A DNA stretch of 64,000 nucleotides, from positions 6,882,001 through 6,946,000 of the forward strand of contig NZ_CP109090.1 of NCBI RefSeq assembly GCF_035917575.1. Reading direction: 5' to 3'. The first letter of the stretch is position 1; each line of letters starts with the position of its first letter. Both the position numbers and the translations under genes were made by a program. The notes beneath the pieces are model-generated. The model saw only the letters and a program-made list of their open reading frames with translations. It had not been told where the DNA came from and did no database searches. Shown here in pieces: positions 25,808 through 37,876 of the stretch. This DNA is from Streptomyces sp. NBC_01788. GTDB lineage: Bacteria > Actinomycetota > Actinomycetes > Streptomycetales > Streptomycetaceae.

Positions 25808-27568
25808 ATGTCGTTCCGGACGAGTGCGCCCGCCTCGCGGTCGCGGACCTCGCTCCCCGCCCGGTTCGCCGGCGGCCTCACCCGCATGACCTGGGTGGAC
25901 CTGGTCGTCGCCGCCGCGGTGGTGGTGCTGCTGTACGTCACCCTGCGGGTGGGGAAAGGGGTCACGCTCTCGTTCTCCACCAGCCAGTCGGCGAAGGTGG
26001 ACACCGGCATCGGTCAGCTGCCCTACGACGCGGCCCGCTCGCTGCTGCGCATGTTCGTCGCCCTGCTCCTGTCCACGGCGTTCACCTTCGTCTACGCCTA
26101 CGCCGCCGCCAAGAGCCGCCGTCTGGAACGGATCCTGATCCCGGCGCTGGACATCCTCCAGTCCGTACCGGTGCTGGCGTTCCTGACCGTGGCGGTGACC
26201 GGGTTCGTCGCCCTGTTCCCGGGCTCGATGCTCGGCCTCGAGTGCGCCGCGATCTTCGCGATCTTCACCTCCCAGGCGTGGAACATGACGTTCGGCTTCT
26301 ACCACTCCCTCACCTCGCTGCCCCGCGAACTGGACGAGCTGTCACGATCGTTCGGCTTCACCCGGTGGATGCGGTTCTGGAAGGTGGAACTGCCCGCCGG
26401 GATGATCGGCCTGGTCTGGAACGGCATGATGAGCTTCGGCGGCGGCTGGTTCTTCCTCGTCGCCTCCGAGGCGGTCACCCTCGGCCACACCGACTACGCC
26501 CTGCCCGGCGTCGGCTCCTACGCCGGGGCCGCGATCGCCGACGGCGACCTGGCCAAGGTCGGCTGCGCGATCCTCACCATGGCGGTCATGGTGATCGGGG
26601 TGAACTTCCTCTTCTGGCGGCCGCTGACCGCCTGGGCGGAGAAGTTCAAGATCGAGCAGTCCGAGGCCAGCGAGGTGCAGCGGTCGGTCGTCCTGGACTT
26701 CCTGCGCCGCTCCGACTGGCCCCGCCTCGCCGGCCGCCTGCTGCGCCCGGCCGGCCGGGCGCTCAGCCGGGCCGGGCGCGCCTTCGGCACCGACGACCGG
26801 CCGCTCGTGGTGCAGCACGGCAGGCGGCGCGCGGGGGACGTCGCCTTCGGCCTGGTGGCGGGCGGCCTGATCGTCTGGGGCCTGGTCGACCTCTGCCTCT
26901 ACCTGTACGACCGCACCGGCCTGGGCGTGTTCGGCGAGCCGCTGCTGCTCGGGCTCGCCACCCTCGCCCGCGTCGTCGTCCTGGTCGCCGTGGCCACGGT
27001 GGTGTGGGTGCCGATCGGCGTGAAGATCGGTTTCTCGCCCCGGCTGACGAGGATCGCCCAGCCGGTGGTGCAGGTGCTGGCGTCCTTCCCGGCGAACTTC
27101 CTCTTCCCGCTCGCGGTGTGGTTCTTCCTCCGAACCGGTCTGAGCATAGACATCGGCGGCATCTTCCTGATGGCCCTGGGCGCCCAGTGGTACATCCTGT
27201 TCAACACCATCGCCGGAGCCATGGCCATCCCCACCGACCTGCGCGAGGCCATGGACGACCTCGGGGTGAGCGGCTGGCAGCGCTGGCGGCGGCTGATCAT
27301 CCCCGGCATCTTCCCCGCCTACGTCACCGGCGGCATCACCGCCTCCGGCGGCGCCTGGAACGCCTCCATCGTCGCCGAGGTCGTCACCTTCGGCGGGGTC
27401 ACGCTCACCGCCACGGGCCTGGGCGCCTACATCGCCCGCGCCACGGAGGAGGGCAACCATCCCCAGTTGATCGCCGGCGTCGTCGTGATGAGCGCCTACG
27501 TCGTCTGCCTCAACCGCTTCCTCTGGCGCCGCCTGTACCGGCTGGCCGAGGCCCGGTACTCCCTGTGA
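25808..27568 (+). CDS. Fused two-domain ABC permease (nitrate/sulfonate/taurine-like)
   Basis: This 586-aa protein contains two BPD_transp_1 permease units in one chain. The first has EAA loop SRSFGFTRWMRFWKVELPAG (about 180-200); the second has EAMDDLGVSGWQRWRRLIIP (about 480-500). Each unit has five to six membrane segments. GGAGG lies eight nt before the ATG; a GTG three nt earlier is possible. The following gene encodes its ATPase, but no substrate-binding protein is nearby. This architecture occurs as a conserved bacterial cassette; substrate and even direction are not established. An ArsR operator, short ORF and leader hairpin precede it. Confidence 0.85.
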   Translation: MSFRTSAPASRSRTSLPARFAGGLTRMTWVDLVVAAAVVVLLYVTLRVGKGVTLSFSTSQSAKVDTGIGQLPYDAARSLLRMFVALLLSTAFTFVYAYAAAKSRRLERILIPALDILQSVPVLAFLTVAVTGFVALFPGSMLGLECAAIFAIFTSQAWNMTFGFYHSLTSLPRELDELSRSFGFTRWMRFWKVELPAGMIGLVWNGMMSFGGGWFFLVASEAVTLGHTDYALPGVGSYAGAAIADGDLAKVGCAILTMAVMVIGVNFLFWRPLTAWAEKFKIEQSEASEVQRSVVLDFLRRSDWPRLAGRLLRPAGRALSRAGRAFGTDDRPLVVQHGRRRAGDVAFGLVAGGLIVWGLVDLCLYLYDRTGLGVFGEPLLLGLATLARVVVLVAVATVVWVPIGVKIGFSPRLTRIAQPVVQVLASFPANFLFPLAVWFFLRTGLSIDIGGIFLMALGAQWYILFNTIAGAMAIPTDLREAMDDLGVSGWQRWRRLIIPGIFPAYVTGGITASGGAWNASIVAEVVTFGGVTLTATGLGAYIARATEEGNHPQLIAGVVVMSAYVVCLNRFLWRRLYRLAEARYSL

Positions 27569-27636
27569 TCCCGTTCCGTCCGCACCCCGGGCCCCATCCG
27601 TACCCCGCACTCCGCACCCCACAGCTTGGACATGCC

Positions 27637-29010
27637 ATGGCGATGAACACCCTCCAGGTCACGAAGAACGACCGCCCGGCCGACGGCGAGCTGCTGCTGG
27701 AGACCGTCGGCCTGACGAAGTCCTACGCCGGCGCCGACGGTGAACTGCCCGTGCTCTCCGGCATCGACCTCCAGGTCCGCGCCGGTGAGGTCGTCGCGCT
27801 GCTGGGCAAGTCCGGCTCGGGCAAGTCGACGCTGCTGCGCTGCATGGCCGGACTCGTGCCGGCCAGTTCCGGCACTGTCAGCTACAAGGGCGCCGTGCTG
27901 GCCGGCGCCAACCCCGGTACGGCGATGGTGTTCCAGACCTTCGCGCTGCTGCCCTGGCTGACCGTGCAGCAGAACGTCGAACTCGGCCTGGAGGCCAAGG
28001 GCGTACACCCCGTGGAGCGCACCGAGGCCGCCCGCCTGGCCATCGACCTGATCGGCCTGGACGGATTCGAGTCCGCCTACCCCAAGGAGCTGTCGGGCGG
28101 CATGCGCCAGCGCGTCGGCTTCGCCCGCGCGCTGGTGGTCGAGCCGGACGTGCTGATGATGGACGAGCCCTTCTCCGCGCTGGACGTGCTCACCGCGGAG
28201 AATCTGCGCGGCGAGCTGATGGAGCTGTGGGAGTCCGGCCAGTTCCCCACCCGGGCCATCGTGCTGGTCACCCACAACATCGAGGAAGCCGTCCTGATGG
28301 CGGACCGGATCGTGGTGCTCGGCTCCCGTCCCTACGGCACCATCCGGGAGGTCTTCGAGGTCGGGCTCGACCGGCCCCGCGACCGCAACTCCGCCGCCTT
28401 CGAGGACATGATCGACCGCGTCTACCGCACCATGACCGGCCGGCAGAAGGAGGGCCGCACCCCCGGCCGGCAGGAGCCGGCCGACCTGGAGAGGCGGACG
28501 GTGGCCAACACCCCGCTGCCGCAGGCGAGCGTGGACGGGCTGTCGGGTCTGGCGGAGCTGGTGCTGCACCGCGGCGGACGGTGCGACCTCGCCGACCTCG
28601 CCGACGACCTCGGCCTGGAGGTCGACGACCTCATGCCCCAGGTCGACGCCCTGGACCTGCTCGGTTTCGCCGGGTTCAGCGGTGACGACCTGCTGCTCAC
28701 CGACACCGGCACCGCGTTCGCCGGGGCCGACGTCCAGGAGTCGAAGACCATCTTCGGCCGGGCGGCGATCCAGCTGCCGCTGGTCAAGGTGATCACCAGC
28801 AGCGTGCGCGGCAAGGCGGACGGCACCGCGCGGGCCGGGTTCTTCCGCGATCTGCTGGCCCATCACTACACCAGCGAGCAGGTCGACCAGCAGTTGGAGA
28901 CGGCCACCGACTGGGGCCGCTACGGCGAGTTGTACGCCTACGACGCCGGGCCCGAGGAGTACCGCCGCGACGACACCGGTGACGCGGCCGGAGCCACGGG
29001 CACCCCGTAG
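27637..29010 (+). CDS. ABC ATPase with C-terminal AAA-associated domain
   Basis: This 457-aa protein has an N-terminal nitrate/taurine-type ABC domain (residues ~25-255; Walker A GKSGSGKST, signature LSGGMRQRVGFARAL, Walker B VLMMDEPFSALD, switch VTHNIEEA). It is followed by a separate helical/winged domain (about 300-440) with SGLAELVLHRGGRCDLADLA and FGRAAIQLPLVKVI, the AAA-associated/ABC_transp C-terminal domain. That domain may sense the cytoplasmic state of the substrate. It lies 68 bp after the permease gene, in the same operon, convergent with the arsR-type gene. Confidence 0.87.
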   Translation: MAMNTLQVTKNDRPADGELLLETVGLTKSYAGADGELPVLSGIDLQVRAGEVVALLGKSGSGKSTLLRCMAGLVPASSGTVSYKGAVLAGANPGTAMVFQTFALLPWLTVQQNVELGLEAKGVHPVERTEAARLAIDLIGLDGFESAYPKELSGGMRQRVGFARALVVEPDVLMMDEPFSALDVLTAENLRGELMELWESGQFPTRAIVLVTHNIEEAVLMADRIVVLGSRPYGTIREVFEVGLDRPRDRNSAAFEDMIDRVYRTMTGRQKEGRTPGRQEPADLERRTVANTPLPQASVDGLSGLAELVLHRGGRCDLADLADDLGLEVDDLMPQVDALDLLGFAGFSGDDLLLTDTGTAFAGADVQESKTIFGRAAIQLPLVKVITSSVRGKADGTARAGFFRDLLAHHYTSEQVDQQLETATDWGRYGELYAYDAGPEEYRRDDTGDAAGATGTP

Positions 29011-29038: not shown

Positions 29039-29449
29039 TCAGGGGGTGCCGCCCAGGGCCGGACGGCGCGAGAGGGCCGGGCTGGTGGCGGTGGCCCGCC
29101 GGGGTGCGGGCGCGCTCTCCTCGCCGCCGGGGCCGCCGCCCTTCGGTCCGTCGCCCTCGGTGACCGTGAGATGGGCGGCCTCCAGCAGGGGGCGTACCCC
29201 CGCGGCCTGGTAGTAGATGCGCGTGCCCTCCCGGCGTGTGGTCACCAGACCTGCCGACCGGAGTCTGGCCAAGTGCTGGGAGGTCGCGGCCACATGGGCA
29301 CCCAGCATCCGTGCCAGCTCGCTCACCGGCTGCTCGCCGTGGCTGAGCGCCCACAGCAGCCGGTAGCGGGAGGGGTCCGCCACCGCCTTGAGCACCGCCA
29401 CCGCCCGGTCCGCCGCCTCGGCGTCCCACCCCTGTGCTTGCGTATCCAT
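29039..29449 (-). CDS. ArsR/SmtB-family repressor
   Basis: This 136-aa protein has the winged-helix core: VLKAVADPSRYRLLWAL, EQPVSELARMLGAHVAATSQ, HLARLRSAGLV, REGTRIYYQ. No cysteine is present, so a thiol arsenic/cadmium site is excluded. Histidines and acidic residues near the last helix (LLEAAHLTVTEGD) could form an alpha5-type metal site, or the protein may sense a non-metal signal. The start codon lies inside an operator-like palindrome matching one upstream of the ABC transporter, so it probably represses itself and that transporter. The C-terminal 35 residues are low-complexity. Confidence 0.85.
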   Translation of the reverse strand: MDTQAQGWDAEAADRAVAVLKAVADPSRYRLLWALSHGEQPVSELARMLGAHVAATSQHLARLRSAGLVTTRREGTRIYYQAAGVRPLLEAAHLTVTEGDGPKGGGPGGEESAPAPRRATATSPALSRRPALGGTP

Positions 29450-29453: not shown

Positions 29454-31280
29454 CTAGGGTACCGGCGGTTCCCCGGGCGGCTCCAACGCGGCGGGCCTCG
29501 CCCCGGCGGGCGCGGTCTCCGGACGCCGGGGCCCGCGCCGCCACGGGACGGGCCAGGACAGGTTGAGGAACGCCTCGGCCTGGAGGGCGGCCAGGCTGAT
29601 GCGGAGCAGGTCCCGGGCCGTGGGATAGATCAGGAACCTCGGCTCCCACCGGGGCTGGAACTTGGCGTTGAACTTGTACAGCGACTCGATCTGGAACCAG
29701 CGGGAGAGGAACAGCAGCAGGCCGCGCCAGGCGCGCAGGGCCGGTCCCGCGCCCAGGCGTTCACCGCGGGCGAGGGCGGCGCGGAACATCGCGAAGTTCA
29801 GCGAGACCCGGCTGATGCCGAGGCCAGGAGCCTGCTGGAGGGCCTTGACGATGAGGAGTTCGTTCAGTCCGGGGTCGGCGGTGCGGTCGCGGCGCATCAG
29901 CTCCAGGGAGATCCCGTCCGGGCCCCAGGGCACGAAGTGCAGGACCGCGCGGATGTCCCCGCCCGGGGCGGAGGCGCCGGCGTCCGGCTCCTTGTGGGCG
30001 GTGACGACCACGCAGTCGCCGTCGCCGGCCTCGCCGAAGCGGCCGAGGGCCATGGAGAAGCCGCGCTCCACCTCGGTGCCGCGCCAGGCGGCCGCCGCCG
30101 CGCGGATCTGCTCCGTCTCCTGCTCGGACAGGTCCCGCACACGGCGGATGCGGCAGCTGTAGCCGCCCCGTTCGATGCGGTTGACCATCTGCCGGACATT
30201 GCGCATCGGCCGCCCGGACAGGGTGAAGGCCTCGGTGTCGACGACGGCCTCGTCGCCGATCTCCAGCGCGTTCAGACCGGCTTCGCGGGTCCACACCTCG
30301 CCGCCGGTCTCGCTGCACCCCATCACCGCGGGAACCCAGGCGTGCCGGGCGGCGGTGTCCATGAACTCCTTGATGGCGCCCGGCCAGGCCTCCACGTCGC
30401 CGATCGGGTCGCCGCCGGCGAGCATCACACCGGACACCACCCGGTAGGCGATCGCCGCCTTGCCGGTGGGGGAGAAGAGCACGTTCTTGTCGCGGCGCAG
30501 CGCGAAGTAGCCGAGCGAGTCCCGCTCACCGTGCCGTTCCAACAGGGCGCGCAGCCGCCGCTCCTCGTCGTCGCCCAGCACGGGTACGGGCGTGAAGGGG
30601 CGCAGCGCGAGGTAGAGGGTGGTGGCCGCGGTCAGCAGGCCGAGCCCGGCGAGCGAGAAGTACACGAGGTCGGCGGTGCGCGCACTGGAGTAGTGCACGG
30701 GTCCCTCGATGCCGATCAGACCGTAGGCGACGTGCTGGATCCGGTCGGACAGCGGGGACGCGACGACCTTCCTGGGGTGCGCGCCGACGATCAGCAGTCC
30801 GGCGCCGAAGCTGAAGGCGCTCAGCAGGAGGAAGTTCCACACGGCCCGCCACCGGGTGCGTGGGTCGGACAGCGCGTAGAACTCCCGGCGGGCGACGAGC
30901 AGCAGCACGAACAGCAGCACCGTGACGGCGCCGGGCACGTGCTGGTGCCAGCGCAGCAGTTGCAGCGCCGCTCCCGTGGGCAGCAGGATCACCACCGCCC
31001 GCCAGGCCCGCCGTTTGCGGCGCCGCAGGGCGTGGGCGAGCATCACCATCAGCACGCCCACGATCAGCGAGGCGGCGGTCGCCAGGGACGACACGGCCCC
31101 AGGCAGGGCCCCGGCCAGGGTCTGCACCCGTCCGTGCCGCATACGAGGGGAGATCGCCCCCGCGACGTCGAGCACGCCCACGAGCAGGCACAGGTAACCG
31201 GCCGCGGCGGGCACACGGTGGTAGGCGGCGCGAAGACGGTTCCGCGAGGCGCCTTCGTCGGTGGTCACGGAGTCCTTCAC
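29454..31280 (-). CDS. Phosphatidylglycerol lysyltransferase-domain (DUF2156) membrane protein, MprF/LysX-like
   Basis: This ~608-aa protein has an N-terminal membrane region of about six helices (roughly residues 20-230). A cytoplasmic catalytic domain of the MprF C-terminal type follows, with VLFSPTGKAAIAYRVVSGVM, GGDPIGD, VEKKVL-like turns and RFQIESLYKFNAKFQPRW near the end. MprF proteins transfer an amino acid from aminoacyl-tRNA to phosphatidylglycerol and lower negative surface charge. Here the start is uncertain: GTG 31280 lies just after a TACGCT -10-like box and may be leaderless, while GTG 31319 is in frame. Substrate amino acid is not determinable. It is divergent from rodA and opens the cell-envelope block. 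Confidence 0.82.
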   Translation of the reverse strand: MKDSVTTDEGASRNRLRAAYHRVPAAAGYLCLLVGVLDVAGAISPRMRHGRVQTLAGALPGAVSSLATAASLIVGVLMVMLAHALRRRKRRAWRAVVILLPTGAALQLLRWHQHVPGAVTVLLFVLLLVARREFYALSDPRTRWRAVWNFLLLSAFSFGAGLLIVGAHPRKVVASPLSDRIQHVAYGLIGIEGPVHYSSARTADLVYFSLAGLGLLTAATTLYLALRPFTPVPVLGDDEERRLRALLERHGERDSLGYFALRRDKNVLFSPTGKAAIAYRVVSGVMLAGGDPIGDVEAWPGAIKEFMDTAARHAWVPAVMGCSETGGEVWTREAGLNALEIGDEAVVDTEAFTLSGRPMRNVRQMVNRIERGGYSCRIRRVRDLSEQETEQIRAAAAAWRGTEVERGFSMALGRFGEAGDGDCVVVTAHKEPDAGASAPGGDIRAVLHFVPWGPDGISLELMRRDRTADPGLNELLIVKALQQAPGLGISRVSLNFAMFRAALARGERLGAGPALRAWRGLLLFLSRWFQIESLYKFNAKFQPRWEPRFLIYPTARDLLRISLAALQAEAFLNLSWPVPWRRGPRRPETAPAGARPAALEPPGEPPVP

Positions 31281-31368
31281 GAGGGGCCAGCGTAGAGCCT
31301 GCTGAGCGGGTGTGACCACGGGCGGGGCTGGTGATCACATCTTTCCCCGGCGTGCTTCAATCAACGGA

Positions 31369-31376
31369 TTGCGCAA
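31369..31376. promoter_or_regulatory. TTGCGCAA motif between the DUF2156 gene and rodA
   Basis: A perfect 8-bp palindrome in TCAACGGATTGCGCAAGTGG. It is one of five related sites in the envelope cluster (see the findings list) and about 100 bp upstream of the rodA start. Confidence 0.55.
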
Positions 31377-31474
31377 GTGGGTGATGATGGCGTCCCGCGC
31401 CGTGCGGGACCCGGGACGGCCTGCCGGGGCAAACCGGGACGAACCGGAGCGAGCCTGAGCGAAGGAGAGTCGCG

Positions 31475-32680
31475 ATGGAGGTCGGGAGCAGGCTCAGGGA
31501 GCCGGGCGCCACGCGGGCGGCGGTCCTGCGCGCGGGACCGCGGCCGCGCACGGCGTTCGGTACGGTCCTGCGGCGGCTGGACTGGCCGCTGCTGGGTGCC
31601 GCGCTGGCGCTGTCCGTGCTCGGCGCGCTGCTGGTGTACTCCGCCACCCGCGGCCGTACCCAGTTGACGGGAGGCGACCCGTACGCCTTCCTGACCCGCC
31701 ATCTGGTCAACCTCGCCATCGGAATCGCTCTGGCCGTCGGCACCATGTGGCTCGGCCCGCGCAGACTGCGGGACCTCGTCCCCGTGCTCTACGGCGTGAC
31801 GCTCCTGCTGGTCCTCGCGGTACTGACTCCGATGGGCGCCACCATCAACGGGTCGCGCCGCTGGATCATGATCGGCGGGATGTCCATCCAGCCCGCGGAG
31901 TTCGTCAAGGTCGCCATCGTGCTGGCCATGGCTGTGCTGCTGGCCACCAAGGTGGACACGGGCGACCGGCCGAGCCCGGACAGCCGTAGCGTCCTGGAGT
32001 CCCTGGCGGTGGCCGGTGTGCCCGCCCTGCTGGTCCTCCTCACGCCGGACCTCGGGCAGTTCATGGGCATCGGGGTGATCGTGCTCGGGGTGCTGCTCGC
32101 CTCGGGTGCCTCGGCGCGCTGGGTCACCGGACTGCTCGCGGTCGGCGTCCTCGGTGCCCTGGCGGTGTGGCAGCTGCATCTGCTGGACCAGTACCAGCTC
32201 AACCGGTTCGCCGCGTTCGCCGATCCCGCGCTCGACCCGTCCGGGGTCGGCTACAACACCAGCCAGGCCAGGATCGCCATCGGGGCCGGCGGCCTGCTGG
32301 GCCAGGGGCTGTTCCACGGAGCGCAGACCACGGGGCAGTTCGTGCCCGAGCAGCAGACCGACTTCGTCTTCAGCGTGGCGGGGGAGGAGTTGGGCTTCCT
32401 GGGCGCCGGGGCGCTGATCGCCCTGCTCGGCGTGGTGCTGTGGCGCGCGCTGCGCATCGCCCGCGCCTGCCCCGACCTGTACGGAACGGTGGTCGCGACC
32501 GGCATCGTGGCCTGGCTGGCCTTCCAGGCGTTCGAGAACATCGGCATGAACCTCGGCATCATGCCGGTCACCGGACTGCCGCTGCCGTTCGTCAGCTACG
32601 GCGGCTCGTCGATGTTCGCCGGCTGGGTCGCCGTCGGCATCCTCCAGGGCATCCGTCTGCAACGCCCGTTGTCCGCCTGA
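31475..32680 (+). CDS. rodA: SEDS-family peptidoglycan glycosyltransferase, RodA-like
   Basis: This 401-aa membrane protein has about ten helices. SEDS hallmarks include GSRRWIMIGGMSIQPAEFVKVAIVLA, the catalytic-site region with an essential Asp (FADPALDPSGVGYN), GLFHGAQTTGQFVPEQQTDFVFSVAGEE and the final PFVSYGGSSMFA. RodA polymerises lipid II with a partner transpeptidase PBP, none of which is adjacent. A GGAG sequence precedes the ATG. It is convergent with another SEDS gene only 10 bp away. Confidence 0.9.
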   Translation: MEVGSRLREPGATRAAVLRAGPRPRTAFGTVLRRLDWPLLGAALALSVLGALLVYSATRGRTQLTGGDPYAFLTRHLVNLAIGIALAVGTMWLGPRRLRDLVPVLYGVTLLLVLAVLTPMGATINGSRRWIMIGGMSIQPAEFVKVAIVLAMAVLLATKVDTGDRPSPDSRSVLESLAVAGVPALLVLLTPDLGQFMGIGVIVLGVLLASGASARWVTGLLAVGVLGALAVWQLHLLDQYQLNRFAAFADPALDPSGVGYNTSQARIAIGAGGLLGQGLFHGAQTTGQFVPEQQTDFVFSVAGEELGFLGAGALIALLGVVLWRALRIARACPDLYGTVVATGIVAWLAFQAFENIGMNLGIMPVTGLPLPFVSYGGSSMFAGWVAVGILQGIRLQRPLSA

Positions 32681-32690
32681 CCCCGGCGCC

Positions 32691-34085
32691 TCAGCGGCGG
32701 CGCCCGGGCCGGCGCAGCAGGGCCGTGCGCATCCGGCGTCCGCGGCCGTCCAGCGCCGCGCGGACCGCCGGTTCGCTGCGGGTGGCGGCGAGCAGGATCC
32801 CCACCGCGTACAGGGTGGCGATCAGTGAGCTGCCGCCGTAGGAGAACAGCGGCAGGGGTACGCCCGCCACGGGCACCAGGCCCAGGACGCCGCCGAGGTT
32901 GATGAAGCTCTGCGCCCCGACCCAGGTGATGATGCCGCCGGCCGCCAGACGGACGAACGGGTCCTTGTGGCGGGCGGCGATGCGCAGGCCGCCCGCGAAC
33001 AGCGCGGCGAACAGGGCCAGTACGGACAGGGTGCCGACCAGACCCAGCTCCTCGCCGGTGATGGCGAAGATGAAGTCGGTGTGTGGCTCGGGCAGTTGGC
33101 CCCACTTCTCCACGCTGGCGCCGATGCCGTTGCCGAACAGGCCGCCCGTCGACAGCGCGTAGAGGCCGTGCACCACCTGCCAGCACTGGTCGTTCGGGCC
33201 CGGGTCGCTCGCACCGAGGCAGGCGAACCGGGACACCCGGTGCGGCGCGGTCATGATCAGCAAGGTGGCCAGGAGTGCCGCGCCCGTCAGGGCGGCCCCG
33301 AAGAGCCGCGGCGGCGCACCGGCCAGCCACAGCAGACCGAACAGTACGGCGCACAGGATGACCGCGGTACCCATGTCCCCGCCGAGCATCATCAGTCCCA
33401 GCAGCAGCAACGCACCGGGTACCAGCGGCACGAGCAGATGCTTCCACTGGTCCAGCAGTTTGTGCTGCTGCTTGCGGGCCAGCAGGTCCGCGCCCCACAC
33501 CACGAACGCGACCTTGGCGAACTCGCTGGGCTGGAGCACGAACGGCCCGCCCAGGTCGAGCCAGTTGGTGTTGCCGTTGACGGTCCGACCCAGCCCCGGC
33601 ACCTGCACCAGCGCCAGCAGCAGCACAGACCCGGCCAGCAGCGGGAAGGCCAGTAACCGGTGCGCCTTCACCGGCATACGGGCGGCCGGCAGCGCCAGCG
33701 CCGCGCCGATCACCGCGGCCATGATCTGCCGGCGCAGATAGTAGGTCGGCGGCAGACCGGAGCGCAGCGCCTGGATCTGCGAGGAGGAGAACACCATCAC
33801 CAGCCCCAGGCCGGCGATCAGCGCGGCACTGCCCGCCACCAGGTAGTAGCCGGTGAGCGGCCGGTCCCAGGCCCGCCGCAGCCGCACGCGGGCGCGGTCG
33901 AGCGCGCTGTGTCCGGGCGTACGTCCCGCACGCCCGCCGCGCGGCCGGGCCGCCGCCTTGGGGGCCCGCCGCGGGGACGCCTTCTCCGGGGCCCGCGGCG
34001 GGACCGGCCGGCGTTCGGGCGCCGCCTTGGCGCCCGGCGCGCCCGGCGCGCGCTTCTCCGCGCGGACACTCTGTGAATTGCGCAT
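32691..34085 (-). CDS. SEDS-family glycosyltransferase, FtsW/RodA-like paralogue with basic N-terminal tail
   Basis: This 464-aa protein has a 75-residue Arg/Pro/Ala-rich cytoplasmic tail, then about ten membrane helices. SEDS signatures are NTNWLDLGGPFVLQPSEFAKVAFVVW, LMMLGGDMGTAVILCAV, LPEPHTDFIFAITGEELG and PLPLFSYGGSSLIAT. It resembles FtsW/SpoVE more than the neighbouring RodA. The tail suggests interaction with acidic partners or membrane. The transcript starts at a 16-bp double TTGCGCA/TGCGCAA palindrome covering its start codon. A sporulation or division role is plausible but not proven. Confidence 0.88.
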   Translation of the reverse strand: MRNSQSVRAEKRAPGAPGAKAAPERRPVPPRAPEKASPRRAPKAAARPRGGRAGRTPGHSALDRARVRLRRAWDRPLTGYYLVAGSAALIAGLGLVMVFSSSQIQALRSGLPPTYYLRRQIMAAVIGAALALPAARMPVKAHRLLAFPLLAGSVLLLALVQVPGLGRTVNGNTNWLDLGGPFVLQPSEFAKVAFVVWGADLLARKQQHKLLDQWKHLLVPLVPGALLLLGLMMLGGDMGTAVILCAVLFGLLWLAGAPPRLFGAALTGAALLATLLIMTAPHRVSRFACLGASDPGPNDQCWQVVHGLYALSTGGLFGNGIGASVEKWGQLPEPHTDFIFAITGEELGLVGTLSVLALFAALFAGGLRIAARHKDPFVRLAAGGIITWVGAQSFINLGGVLGLVPVAGVPLPLFSYGGSSLIATLYAVGILLAATRSEPAVRAALDGRGRRMRTALLRRPGRRR

Positions 34086-34093
34086 GTGCGCAA
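34078..34093. promoter_or_regulatory. TTGCGCA-TG-TGCGCAA palindrome at the FtsW-like start
   Basis: Perfect 7-bp arms span the start codon (34083-34085, minus). It is the longest member of the motif family in this cluster. Confidence 0.6.
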
Positions 34094-34231
34094 CCGTAGA
34101 GGTACGGGAGTGCTCCCCGTGGGTCCGGCGCTCCGATGCCGGTGGCGCATCGCCGCTTCGCGGCACGCGTGTGTGGGCGCGCGGCCCCGGCCGCGCGGGA
34201 CGAGTCGCCATGGTGATCGGCCGCCGTCCCG

Positions 34232-34618
34232 TCAGGAGCGCGGCGCGCGACGGCGCCGGAACGGGTTCCGGAAGCGCCGCGGCCCACGACGCGCGGCCCG
34301 TGGCCCGCCGTCCAGGATGAGGCGGGCGGTGTCCTCGGGGCCCAGGGGAGCGTGGCCGGGACGGCGGGACCAGAAGCGGGCCAGGTGGCGTTCCAGATCC
34401 TCCCGGCCGTCCTCCTCGGTGCGCGCGACCAGGACCGGGCCCTCCGCGCCCTCCGGGGCGCGCAGGTCGACGAGACGCCCCTCGGCGGTGAAGGCGGCGA
34501 ACTCCCCGTCCGCCACGTCGATGGCCTCGAGGTCGGCCTCCGCGGCCGGAAGCGAGGGGAAGACGGCAAGTTCCTCGTCCCGGTCGAAGACCAGGACGAG
34601 GTCGGCAGGATGGTTCAC
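34232..34618 (-). CDS. Conserved acidic hypothetical protein with basic tail (128 aa)
   Basis: GTG start with GGGGAGG eight nt upstream. The first ~95 residues look like a compact alpha/beta domain (ADLVLVFDRDEELAVFPSL, then FAAFTAEGRLVDLR, VLVARTEEDGREDLERHLAR). The last ~25 are Arg-rich (RRGPRRFRNPFRRRRAPRS). No signal peptide or membrane segment is present. No family is recognised. Position among envelope genes and divergence from the small gene at 34766 are the only clues. Confidence 0.65.
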   Translation of the reverse strand: MNHPADLVLVFDRDEELAVFPSLPAAEADLEAIDVADGEFAAFTAEGRLVDLRAPEGAEGPVLVARTEEDGREDLERHLARFWSRRPGHAPLGPEDTARLILDGGPRAARRGPRRFRNPFRRRRAPRS

Positions 34619-34741
34619 GTGCCCATCCTCCCCGGTCGGATCCCCAATTCGCCAGCCGGGCAAGGGGGATGGAGAAATCATGGGCCCGAGTGCACTTCGG
34701 CCCGGGGTCCGGGCGGGCGGGAGATCTGCTCGGGTCAACGA

Positions 34742-34749
34742 TTGCGCAA
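34742..34749. promoter_or_regulatory. TTGCGCAA motif before the small gene at 34766
   Basis: A perfect 8-bp palindrome 16 bp before the ATG, in the context TCAACGATTGCGCAACCCG, sharing flanking TCAACG with the rodA site. A TAAACT hexamer at 34754-34759 could be the -10. Confidence 0.55.
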
Positions 34750-34765
34750 CCCGTAAACTGTCCCC

Positions 34766-34999
34766 ATGGAACCTGGTGGTGGCGTGATGGGGCAGGATGC
34801 CGCGGTCCTGGTGGGCGGGCCGGCGGACGGGATGCGGGTGAAGGTCGCCGGGCGGCCGTGGGTGCTCCAGGTGGCGCTCCCCTGCCAGGCGGAGGCGCCG
34901 CGGGACGACGCACGCGTGGAGGCGGTCTACATCTACCGCCGCGACGCGCGCGCGAAGGGCGAGCCCCTGCGGTACGGATTCGACGCGGCCAGCCCCTGA
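34766..34999 (+). CDS. Small conserved hypothetical protein (77 aa)
   Basis: A compact, probably all-beta protein (DAAVLVGGPADGMRVKVAGR, VEAVYIYRRDARAKGEPLRY) with no signal peptide or Cys. Only 16 bp separate the TTGCGCAA motif from the ATG, so the mRNA may be leaderless or nearly so. Similar small proteins are common in Streptomyces; no function can be assigned. It lies upstream of the LCP gene with its own motif between them. Confidence 0.65.
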   Translation: MEPGGGVMGQDAAVLVGGPADGMRVKVAGRPWVLQVALPCQAEAPRDDARVEAVYIYRRDARAKGEPLRYGFDAASP

Positions 35000-35072
35000 C
35001 CGCTCCCGCTCGGCCGGGGTGCGGGCCGGTCGCGTACCCCGTCGCGAAGGCCCCTCATCGACTGTTGCTACA

Positions 35073-35080
35073 TTGCGCAA
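35073..35080. promoter_or_regulatory. TTGCGCAA motif before the LCP gene
   Basis: A perfect palindrome in ACATTGCGCAACTGTAC, 65 bp before the LCP ATG; the flanks also read in opposite directions (GTTGC ... ACAAC). Confidence 0.55.
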
Positions 35081-35145
35081 CTGTACAACCATTGGGTGGG
35101 GTCAGTCGTCCCCTCTGTATGAGTACGACGGATGAGGGTGCGCGC

Positions 35146-36684
35146 ATGACGACCAGCCACAAGACCGCTCCTTCGCGCCGCCGGAGCAGGGGAGTCCCGC
35201 CCCAGCGCCGGGGCGGTTCGCGCCGCGCCTCCCGCGGCAGCGGCGGACGCACCCGCGCACGCACCGCCCTGATCGTGGCGCTGTCCCTGCTGGTGCTCGG
35301 CACGGCGGGGGTTGGCTGGCTGTATCTGAAGCTCAACGGCAACATCAACACCTTCGGCGCCGACGGCCTGTCCGACGACCGGCCCGACGCCGGCTCGTCC
35401 AAGGGCGAGAACGTCCTGGTCATCGGTTCCGACGCGCGCGTGGGCGGCAACGACGCCCTCGGCGGAGGCAGCAAGGACGACATAGGCCGCTCCGACACCG
35501 CGTTCCTGCTGCACGTCTACGCCGACCACCAGCACGCCCTCGCCGTGTCCATCCCCCGGGACACCCTGGTCACCATCCCGCCCTGCAAGCTCCCCGACGG
35601 CAGCTGGACCGAGGCGCAGCCGAACACGATGTTCAACGCCGCGTACTCCGTGGGCGGCACCGCCGAGGGCAACCCCGCGTGCAGTCAGAACACCGTGGAG
35701 CAGCTCACCGGACTGCGCGTGGACCACACCGTCGTCGTCGACTTCAAGGGATTCGCCGCGCTGACCGACGTGGTGGGCGGGGTGCCGGTGTGCGTGCCGC
35801 AGGACGTGTACCAGAAGGACCTCAACCCCAACCGGGCCACCCGCGGCTCCGTGCTGTTCACCAAGGGCGAGCAGACCGTCGCCGGGCAGAAGGCGCTGGA
35901 CTGGGTCCGCATCCGGCACGGCATCGGCGACGGCTCCGACATAGGCCGGATCAAGCGCCAGCAGGCGTTCGTCGCCAGTCTCATCAAGCAGGTCAAGGCC
36001 GACGGGCTCACCCCGGGCAAGCTGCTGCCCCTCGCCGACGCCGCGACCAAGTCGCTCACCGTGGACCCCGGTCTCGGCTCGGCCGACAAGCTGCTGTCGT
36101 TCGCGCTGTCGTTGAAGAACGTGGACCTGCACAACACCAAGTTCGTCACCATCCCGTGGCGCTATCAGGGCGCGCGGGTGGCCATCGTGGAGCCGGACGC
36201 CTCGGAGCTGTGGGCCGCGCTCAGGGCCGACCGCACCATCGACGGCAAGGACGCCGGAGGCAAGAAGGGCAAGAAGAGCAAGGCGGGCGCCTCCCCGTCC
36301 CCCGACACCGGCCTGGGGAAGGGCATCGACGTCAGCGTCTACAACGGCACCACCACCCTCGGCCTCGCCACGCGGGGCGCCGCCACCCTCACCGGTCGCG
36401 GCTTCACCGTCACCTCCACGGGGAACGCGGGCAGCCAGAACCACGCCACCACGGTCATCCAGTACGGGCCCGGCCGGCAGGACCAGGCCGAGACAGTCGC
36501 CAAGCTCTTCCCCGGGGCCGAGCTCCAGGCACTGACCGGACCGGGCATCAACGTGGTCCTGGGCGAGGACTTCGTGGCCGCCCCGGACGCGGCCTCGGCC
36601 GAGCCGACCTCCATGCCCACCTCGGTGGCGGCGGAAGCCCGCTCGGCCGACGACGACCTGTGCACCAACCTGTCCTACGGGTAG
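35146..36684 (+). CDS. LytR-CpsA-Psr (LCP) family cell-wall glycopolymer ligase with LytR_C domain
   Basis: This 512-aa protein has a basic, Ser/Arg-rich cytoplasmic N-terminus and one membrane helix (about 43-65, LIVALSLLVLGTAGVGWLYL). The extracytoplasmic LCP domain (about 90-350) carries VLVIGSDARVG, GRSDTAFLLHVYADHQ, VSIPRDTLV, DFKGFAALTDVVGGV, ALDWVRIRHG and the catalytic arginines. A Lys-rich linker and a LytR_C domain (about 400-475) follow. LCP enzymes attach teichoic acid-type or other polymers to peptidoglycan. The ATG at 35146 has GAGGG eight nt upstream; an in-frame ATG at 35119 is possible. Confidence 0.9.
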   Translation: MTTSHKTAPSRRRSRGVPPQRRGGSRRASRGSGGRTRARTALIVALSLLVLGTAGVGWLYLKLNGNINTFGADGLSDDRPDAGSSKGENVLVIGSDARVGGNDALGGGSKDDIGRSDTAFLLHVYADHQHALAVSIPRDTLVTIPPCKLPDGSWTEAQPNTMFNAAYSVGGTAEGNPACSQNTVEQLTGLRVDHTVVVDFKGFAALTDVVGGVPVCVPQDVYQKDLNPNRATRGSVLFTKGEQTVAGQKALDWVRIRHGIGDGSDIGRIKRQQAFVASLIKQVKADGLTPGKLLPLADAATKSLTVDPGLGSADKLLSFALSLKNVDLHNTKFVTIPWRYQGARVAIVEPDASELWAALRADRTIDGKDAGGKKGKKSKAGASPSPDTGLGKGIDVSVYNGTTTLGLATRGAATLTGRGFTVTSTGNAGSQNHATTVIQYGPGRQDQAETVAKLFPGAELQALTGPGINVVLGEDFVAAPDAASAEPTSMPTSVAAEARSADDDLCTNLSYG

Positions 36685-36732
36685 GGCGGACACGCCGGCG
36701 CGGCGCCCTGCCCGCCCGGCCGGCCGACGGCG

Positions 36733-36766
36733 AAGGGCCGCACCCGCTGCTGCGGGTGCGGCCCTT
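36733..36766. terminator. Bidirectional terminator
   Basis: Perfect 15-bp arms (AAGGGCCGCACCCGC and complement) around TGCT, with A-rich and T-rich ends, between the convergent LCP and LAETG genes. Confidence 0.92.
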
Positions 36767-36797
36767 GTGCCTTGCCTCAGTGCGTCAGGGACGCGGA

Positions 36798-37835
36798 TCA
36801 GGCGGTGGCGGCTCCGCTGCCGGCCTTGCGGCGGCGCACCACGAACACGGCGCCCGCGCCGACGGCGACCGCGGCACCGCCCGCCAGCGCGATCATCGGC
36901 AGCGCCGAGCTGGAGCCGGTCTCGGCGAGGTGGCCCTGCGGGACGATCTGGTTGTTGCCGGCCGGCTTGACCGGCAGCGGCTTCTTGCCGCCCTGCGGCT
37001 TGGCGTCGCCCGGGTTGCCCTGCTTGGAGCCGGCGGCGAGGACGTCGAACTGGTAGGAGTCGTTGTCGCTGGAGTAGACGCAGTTGCCCTTGTCGTCGGC
37101 GTACATGCCGATGGAGATGGCGAAGCCCATGCCGGCCGGGGCCTTGTTGCCAATGCTCAGTCGCAGGTCGATGGAGAAGGACTCCTTGGCCTGGACGTCG
37201 GTGTAACCGAGGTAGCCGGCGCCTTCGTCGCGCTCGTCCAGGGAGATGTCCACCCACTTGCCGGTGGCCGGGTCCTTGAACTGCAGCGTGAGGTAGCTGG
37301 TGTTGAACTCGAAGTTCTTCTCGTCGATCTGAGCGGCGAACACGCCGAGGTCGACGCGCTTGTAGGCGTTCTTACCGGAGTTCTTGACGTTCAGCTTGAA
37401 GTTGTGGAAGCCGCTGCCCGCGACGATCTTCGAGGGCAGGCCGGACAGGCTGGTGTGCAGGTTCTCGTCGAACTTCAGGTCGTCGGTGTCCTTGCACAGC
37501 TCCGGGTCCGGCGTGGGGGAGGCCGACGGAGAGGAGGTCACGGTCGCCGACGGGGTGGGCTTGGGTGAGTCGGTGGCGGACTCGTCCTCCGAGGGAGTCG
37601 ACTCGGACGGGGTCGACTCCGCGTCCTCCGAGGGAGTTGACTCGGACGGGGTCGACTCCGCGTCCTCCGAGGGAGTCGACTCGGACGGGGTCGACTCCGT
37701 GTCGTCCGAGGGAGTCGAGTCGGACGAGGTGACCGGGTCGTTGCCCGTCGCGAAGGCGGCGGGGGCCGCAAGAAGCACGGCCGGTGCGATGGCTGCCGTG
37801 GCTGCTGCGAGAGCCAAGGAGCGGCGAATCTTCAT
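36798..37835 (-). CDS. LAETG-anchored (sortase E type) surface protein with acidic Ser/Thr/Pro repeats
   Basis: This 345-aa secreted protein starts at ATG 37835 with GAGG five nt upstream. It has a signal peptide (about 1-32, AFA-T) and a low-complexity segment of 13-residue repeats (STPSESTPSEDAE, three copies plus partial ones; about 37-85). An Ig-like/DUF11-type adhesive domain with two Cys follows (about 110-285). The C-terminal sorting signal is LAETG, a hydrophobic stretch and RRRK. LAxTG is recognised by class E sortases, which anchor chaplins and other surface proteins in Streptomyces; no sortase gene is in the window. It may be a stalked surface protein. Confidence 0.87.
   Translation of the reverse strand: MKIRRSLALAAATAAIAPAVLLAAPAAFATGNDPVTSSDSTPSDDTESTPSESTPSEDAESTPSESTPSEDAESTPSESTPSEDESATDSPKPTPSATVTSSPSASPTPDPELCKDTDDLKFDENLHTSLSGLPSKIVAGSGFHNFKLNVKNSGKNAYKRVDLGVFAAQIDEKNFEFNTSYLTLQFKDPATGKWVDISLDERDEGAGYLGYTDVQAKESFSIDLRLSIGNKAPAGMGFAISIGMYADDKGNCVYSSDNDSYQFDVLAAGSKQGNPGDAKPQGGKKPLPVKPAGNNQIVPQGHLAETGSSSALPMIALAGGAAVAVGAGAVFVVRRRKAGSGAATA
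37585..37728. repeat. 39-bp tandem repeats within the LAETG gene
   Basis: Three nearly identical 39-bp units (37585-37623, 37624-37662, 37663-37701) and a degenerate partial fourth encode the acidic S/T/P stalk. They are in frame, so copy-number change would alter stalk length without frameshift. Confidence 0.9.
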
Positions 37836-37867
37836 GCGAACCTCGAAAAACAGAAGTGGTCGATGTA

Positions 37868-37876
37868 TGCGCAATG
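37868..37876. promoter_or_regulatory. CATTGCGCA motif (half palindrome) before the LAETG gene
   Basis: On the minus strand CATTGCGCA lies 33 bp upstream of the LAETG start and about 105 bp upstream of the divergent LURP-like gene. It matches the left part of the LCP site (CATTGCGCAA). Confidence 0.45.

Follow-up and report, generated by a model that had tools for sequence, protein, structure and literature searches.

A probable doubled ArsR-type operator upstream of envelope and stress genes in Streptomyces, and its candidate regulator

What decides the use of the extra SEDS and LCP copies of Streptomyces is, to our knowledge, largely open. The genome of Streptomyces sp. NBC_01788 encodes seven SEDS synthases and ten LCP ligases, and some of these genes lie together in the window analysed here (64,000 nucleotides, 6.88–6.95 Mb of the 8.27-Mb chromosome; Table 1). 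A preliminary description proposed that the palindrome TTGCGCAA marks their promoters, and with them that of a surface protein, as an undescribed regulon. Is there such a regulon, and which protein would read the palindrome? Perfect copies do lie at 31369, 34742 and 35073 as described, all intergenic in a window with a coding share of 87% and within a span of 3.7 kb; the three copies compare with 0.33 expected per window, and none of 100 shuffled windows reached three. Allowing up to one mismatch gave 14 copies in the window against 12.4 expected, so related sites defined by a mismatch only are not significant, and we rejected them. The preliminary description is partly confirmed: of its five related sites, the three exact copies and the box at 34078 are present, and the site at 37867 does not belong with them.

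Genome-wide, the bare 8-mer proved a poor marker. Only 36 exact copies occur in 8.27 Mb, compared with 72 of the reversed control 8-mer, so it is not enriched; 19 copies lie outside genes and 17 in coding sequence, as called by the rough custom script used for genes throughout. Three of the 36 copies falling inside 3.7 kb anywhere had P = 0.0036 under random placement. With no enrichment and about half of its copies in coding sequence, the bare 8-mer was rejected as the regulatory unit. TTGCGCAA forms the conspicuous middle of a longer, 24-bp operator, TTgc-N4-TTGCGCAA-N4-gcAA. One reading of this operator is a pair of TTGC-N8-GCAA boxes offset by 8 bp, whose overlap is TTGCGCAA. The unit is this 16-bp box, in most cases present as a 24-bp double, rather than the 8-mer. 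The pattern TTN6TTGCGCAAN6AA matched 51 times in 61 Streptomyces genomes, compared with one control match, and 257 times in 295 Streptomyces genomes, compared with six for the reversed control. Its distribution is patchy, the exact operator being present in 110 of the 295 genomes, about a third.

The spacing of TTGC-N8-GCAA equals that of the ArsR/SmtB operator TTGA-N8-TCAA, and the core letters differ (TTGC/GCAA). According to PMC8790569, ArsR/SmtB operators are 12-2-12 repeats, with TTGA-N8-TCAA as a printed example; PMC7965956 reports that some ArsR target motifs do not match 12-2-12. Among the fetched loci, which were mostly chosen for containing sites, 11 stand-alone N8 boxes without TTGCGCAA overlap lay outside genes and none in coding sequence (one of them prompted the choice of its locus, L163, and three are in the window), each other spacing from 1 to 24 gave at most four boxes outside genes, and one further N8 box, overlapping TTGCGCAA, lay inside a called gene. 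The window holds four N8 boxes (25459, 29438, 34078 and 35065) and no box of another spacing between 1 and 20. The preference for N8 outside genes was seen in the fetched loci and not in an unbiased 1.2-Mb sample of the window's genome, where exact boxes outside genes numbered one for N8 and zero to four for other spacings, and one-mismatch boxes outside genes showed no peak (54 for N8, 61 for N9 and 55 for N10). The N8 box is thus rare and not a general feature of the genome.

Table 1. Features of the window and the candidate regulator gene (window positions unless stated otherwise)
Feature	Position	Strand	Remarks
Candidate regulator gene, ArsR/SmtB family	G000:C1 6178157-6178513 (L159 9998-10354)		Apparent operon with MgtA-type Mg2+ ATPase
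Single box TTGCGTATCGACGCAA	25459..25474		5' of ABC permease gene
Second ArsR-family gene, 136 aa	29039..29449 (protein 29042-29449)	-	NF033788 80.7 bits, cut-off 55
Single box TTGC-N8-GCAA	29438..29453		Holds ATG of the window ArsR gene
Lysylphosphatidylglycerol-synthase-like gene	29454..31268	-	PF09924; divergent from rodA
Weak operator-like site	31361..31384, core 31369-31376		Between divergent LPG-synthase-like gene and rodA; score 11.3
SEDS gene, RodA type, 401 aa	31475..32680	+	TIGR02210 352 bits, over cut-off
SEDS gene, FtsW type, 464 aa from ATG at 34085	32691..34085	-	TIGR02614 369 bits, over cut-off
Single box TTGC-N8-GCAA, TTGCGCATGTGCGCAA	34078..34093		Exact N8; over possible FtsW-like start ATG
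Operator GTCAACGATTGCGCAACCCGTAAA	34734..34757, core 34742-34749		5' of 77-aa gene; score 23.1
-10-like TAAACT	34754..34759	+	6 nt before ATG 34766; leaderless arrangement, predicted from sequence
77-aa protein, recurrent target	34766..34999	+	Homologues at other sites
Full double operator TTGCTACATTGCGCAACTGTACAA	35065..35088, core 35073-35080		5' of LCP; matrix score 37.5
LCP glycopolymer transferase, 512 aa	35146..36684	+	PF03816 and PF13399
LAETG sortase-dependent surface protein, outside regulon	36798..37835	-	NF041528

Sites were scored with a matrix; a score exceeding 11 should arise 0.03 times per 64 kb judging from shuffled sequence and 0.09 times judging from reversed loci. It was trained on sites picked for outer TT/AA, so conservation of the outer letters is partly by construction; the exact-pattern counts and their controls are independent of it. 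The 34078 box, first taken for a 16-bp double form, does cover the possible FtsW-like start codon as described but is a single N8 box (scores of 14.7 and 16.0 for its two overlapping readings). Around the 31369 core the outer TT/AA is matched by half only; orthologues were found in a 99%-identical relative alone, and the 69%-identical paralogue in the same genome has no site. A chance origin of the 31369 site is possible. The supposed site before the LAETG gene reads ATGCGCAA at 37867, its core letters are altered also in the near relative L034, and the best upstream score is –11.3; the gene was rejected as a regulon member, and the 37867 letters are likely a product of chance.

The preliminary description had named alignment of orthologous upstream regions as a check, and conservation was clear at the LCP promoter. 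Among LCP relatives taken from 26 loci, exact TTGCGCAA is kept at the promoter in 17 of the 19 Streptomyces loci, including the near-identical L034, usually in the frame TTGCTANATTGCGCAAYTGTACAACC; the misses are L044, with one mismatch, and L036, where ArsR and LCP genes are present and the LCP gene has no site. None of the four non-Streptomyces loci with enough upstream sequence (L051, L053, L055 and L057) has TTGCGCAA there. Furthermore, a third SEDS gene elsewhere in the genome has an operator 70 bp upstream, kept in two orthologues of 80–82% identity. The strong sites of this genome precede the LCP gene, the 77-aa gene, a TerD/GlsB-like gene, this SEDS gene and a neighbour of a second LCP gene. 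Thus, the proposed joining of SEDS and LCP genes is well supported, whereas the LAETG gene fell away and rodA is a weak member.

Across the fetched loci, 96 of 97 operator sites (up to one outer mismatch) lie outside called genes. The genes behind the 97 sites encode LCP (30), TatA (29), TerD (16), YeaQ/GlsB-like (5), TatB-like (4) and 77-aa family (4) proteins and others, 19 sites having no called start inside 250 bp; the names TatB-like, YeaQ/GlsB-like, MgtC-like, MFS and SulP-like rest in part on inspection by eye, with Pfam run on representatives only. At 17 loci the LCP and TatA starts diverge from a single operator between them. A common operator thus recurs at orthologous promoters across many species, and the regulon is broader than envelope genes, taking in TatA, TatB-like, TerD, YeaQ/GlsB-like and 77-aa family proteins. 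In a class-wide scan of 393 genomes, matches occurred in 14 of 44 Streptomyces and in 28 of 349 others; the latter gave 35 sites compared with 13 in the control, and 17 of the 28 genomes are small and belong to one family (f21), so there is no clear operator signal outside the genus.

The window member of the 77-aa family matched nothing in Pfam or NCBIfam at E ≤ 0.001. Across the family a TAAA(G/C)T-like box comes after TTGCGCAA, and the distance from core to ATG is 16 nt in nine of the 15 members listed, including that of the window. Leaderless transcripts have such a spacing, and the transcript of the 77-aa gene is probably leaderless, as judged from the sequence; leaderless starts are predicted at 34766 for this gene and at 34085 for the FtsW-like gene. 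For the third SEDS gene, as for both of its orthologues, a –10-like TATAGT or TATAAC lies 3 nt past TTGCGCAA. No clear –10 could be placed in the LCP, TatA and TerD promoters, the divergent LCP/TatA loci included. The core adjoining –10-like boxes raised the idea of an alternative sigma factor element, which is disfavoured by the symmetry of the core and by its occurrence between divergent genes.

A candidate regulator was found 735 kb from the window sites, in a gene of the ArsR/SmtB family. The ArsR-type domain scored 80.2 bits with NF033788 (cut-off 55) in the protein of this genome and 37.5 bits with PF01022 (cut-off 22) in the orthologue of L035, and its partner P-type ATPase passes the Mg2+-ATPase model TIGR01524 (668 bits, cut-off 610.75). 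The family lies near sites in 34 of 59 loci, the window included, with a P-type ATPase adjoining in 28. With an orthologue cut-off of E ≤ 1e-30 set in this analysis, 104 of the 295 Streptomyces genomes have both operator and ArsR gene, six the operator only, three the gene only and 182 neither: the two agree in 286 genomes and disagree in nine (Fisher 6e-68, not corrected for phylogeny). Mean operator sites per genome rose from 1.8 with one ArsR copy (n = 81) to 3.7 with two (n = 25) and 13 with four (n = 1), these and the co-occurrence counts being transcribed by hand. In the 61-genome set, linkage to the ArsR gene was seen for 31 of 51 sites; together with the lack of phylogeny correction, this means that common inheritance of a single island accounts for part of the co-occurrence. 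Another 19 of the 51 sites, in 10 genomes, lie more than 30 kb from the ArsR gene or on another contig, and the 38 genomes without the gene hold one site, compared with these 19 unlinked sites in carriers (P = 1e-4). Where only weaker ArsR matches (≤ 92 bits) occur, the exact operator was found in none of 23 of the 61 genomes, the frame-broken gene of G010 included.

Operator presence tracks the ArsR gene better than it tracks the LCP target. Among 11 genomes that carry the ArsR gene and give no LCP match at E ≤ 1e-100, ten possess the operator; neither of the two genomes with LCP but no ArsR orthologue has an exact one. Of these two, G055 lacks a site at LCP, and in G010 the LCP operator survives with one mismatch, next to the frame-broken ArsR homologue; G028 has the ArsR gene and a degenerate site (score 19.8). 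Taken together, these results make it probable that the window sites are operators of the ArsR/SmtB protein encoded at 6178157-6178513, which would be an undescribed repressor occluding these promoters. A literature search apparently found no paper on a Streptomyces regulator using TTGCGCAA, nor one on an ArsR regulon of Streptomyces LCP, RodA, envelope or P-type ATPase/TerD genes, most subscription journals being outside its coverage.

The window has an ArsR gene of its own, whose product is 48% identical to the candidate regulator over 58 aa, and this protein might regulate the window boxes, including those at 34078 and 35065, the MgtA-linked gene being merely co-inherited. Its gene is 5–6 kb from the sites, and an exact N8 box covers the start codon, with a TACCCT box 6 nt upstream; the 25459 box, 5' of the neighbouring ABC operon, shares on its other strand the half GATACGCAA with the 29438 box; and the 34078 box likewise has an ATG inside. 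An own box at the start and a box before a neighbouring operon form the usual ArsR-family arrangement, which supports reading N8 boxes as ArsR operators. However, the double operator tracks the MgtA-linked gene in other genomes, the interior of the window ArsR box (ATGGATAC) is unlike the double operators, and a close relative of the window protein was found among the fetched loci in L034 only, other tblastn matches being 40–55% identical. We therefore regard control of all these boxes by the window ArsR as unlikely; for the single boxes, however, it is a second candidate, and the 34078 box may be used by either ArsR protein.

It is equally unlikely that the operator belongs to some other regulator, with the MgtA-linked gene travelling in the target island and not controlling it. 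Such a regulator would fit the linkage of 31 of 51 sites and the scarcity of self-operators, an operator being present within 400 bp 5' of the ArsR gene in only four of 35 cases and absent from the ArsR–MgtA operon of this genome; moreover, co-occurrence was computed with the ArsR family as the sole regulator family. The unlinked sites, the rise of site number with gene copies and the ArsR-type spacing speak against it. Autoregulation, for which an upstream operator is mostly missing here, is usual for ArsR proteins according to PMC7965956, though usual is not required. Chance or composition as the source of the whole 8-mer cluster is very improbable: the genome-wide deficit and coding copies of the bare 8-mer agree with it, but the excess of the extended pattern over its control does not, and conservation at the LCP promoters refutes it for the 35073 site.

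If the MgtA-linked ArsR protein is the regulator, one or two of its dimers would occupy each operator, contacting the TTGC/GCAA half-sites in the geometry of ArsR proteins. In promoters with a recognisable –10-like element (77-aa family, SEDS), this element abuts the operator, so that bound protein would exclude RNA polymerase, hence repression; a signal freeing the repressor would then switch on envelope, Tat-export and stress functions jointly. The pairing with MgtA hints at Mg2+ or envelope state as that signal. The metal ligands of SmtB-type proteins are Cys or His/Asp on α3 or α5. An alignment of 27 proteins of the candidate family has no invariant Cys, invariant His at H33 and H62 only and a nearly invariant D86-D87-P88; its C-terminal helix is without a conserved His. 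The fuller proposal is more tentative, and we hold it to be possible with the balance somewhat against it: a repressor paired with a Mg2+ ATPase and devoid of the usual metal ligands would sense envelope or Mg2+ state and, through doubled ArsR boxes, switch on a spare peptidoglycan set (extra SEDS, LCP, Tat export and TerD) as one regulon.

Compared with known ArsR/SmtB metalloregulators (SmtB, AzuR, CzrA and NmtR), the system shares the HTH_5 winged helix, an operator in the promoter region, TTGN/NCAA half-sites and the N8 spacing of the 12-2-12 repeats. It differs in the double overlapping box, TTGC for TTGA, dispersed envelope and stress targets, the mostly absent self-operator and the lack of conserved Cys and C-terminal-helix His. 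Among solved structures, the best sequence match was chain 13ct (48.5 bits), which we take to be SqrR of the sulfur-sensing SqrR/BigR type; the BigR model gave the candidate 45.6 bits, far under its 155-bit cut-off, and the candidate family has no conserved cysteines. MgtA/MgtC Mg2+ stress systems are regulated by PhoP or a riboswitch. The resemblance to them lies in the MgtA-type partner ATPase and in an MgtC-like gene (by eye) at the L049 site, 3' of the operator; the candidate regulator here is of ArsR type. AzuR of Anabaena, according to PMC8790569, is similar in having a gene remote from its target, an own operon without the repeat and scattered similar repeats, and dissimilar in having an α5 metal site and controlling metallothionein. 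The analysis yields an explicit operator sequence, a regulator candidate and a set of putative targets. It also shows an ArsR-type box reused for a dispersed envelope and stress regulon, with a signature that can be scanned for.

Several minor observations were made. The 25459 box precedes a nitrate/taurine-like ABC transporter operon (25808-29010), and the LAETG gene contains tandem DNA repeats at 37580-37720 (by eye). Elsewhere in the genome, a gene at 3895462 whose product start looks LAETG-like by eye has TTGCGCAA 64 bp upstream yet scores only 12.7, and was rejected. The second LCP locus (L151 8535-13098, about 746.5–751.1 kb of this genome) carries a full operator, two more N8 boxes and a 183-aa fragment resembling an MgtA-type ATPase (by eye). 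The genome with four ArsR copies (G251, L168–L171) has 13 exact operators, and four of those listed lie within 51 kb of one contig end. In L029, GTTTGCGCAAAC at 2001-2008 is close to sugar-binding protein and ABC genes of a sugar operon; its LacI-like look probably reflects a different factor and another use of the same 8-mer. The sole N8 box outside genes in the unbiased 1.2 Mb, at 431977, lies between MFS-like and SulP-like genes that diverge around TTGCTAAATTTCGCAA (L163 8602-12246, 430.6–434.2 kb of this genome; names by eye), and a third ArsR-like gene (by eye) is 1.9 kb from it in the same region.
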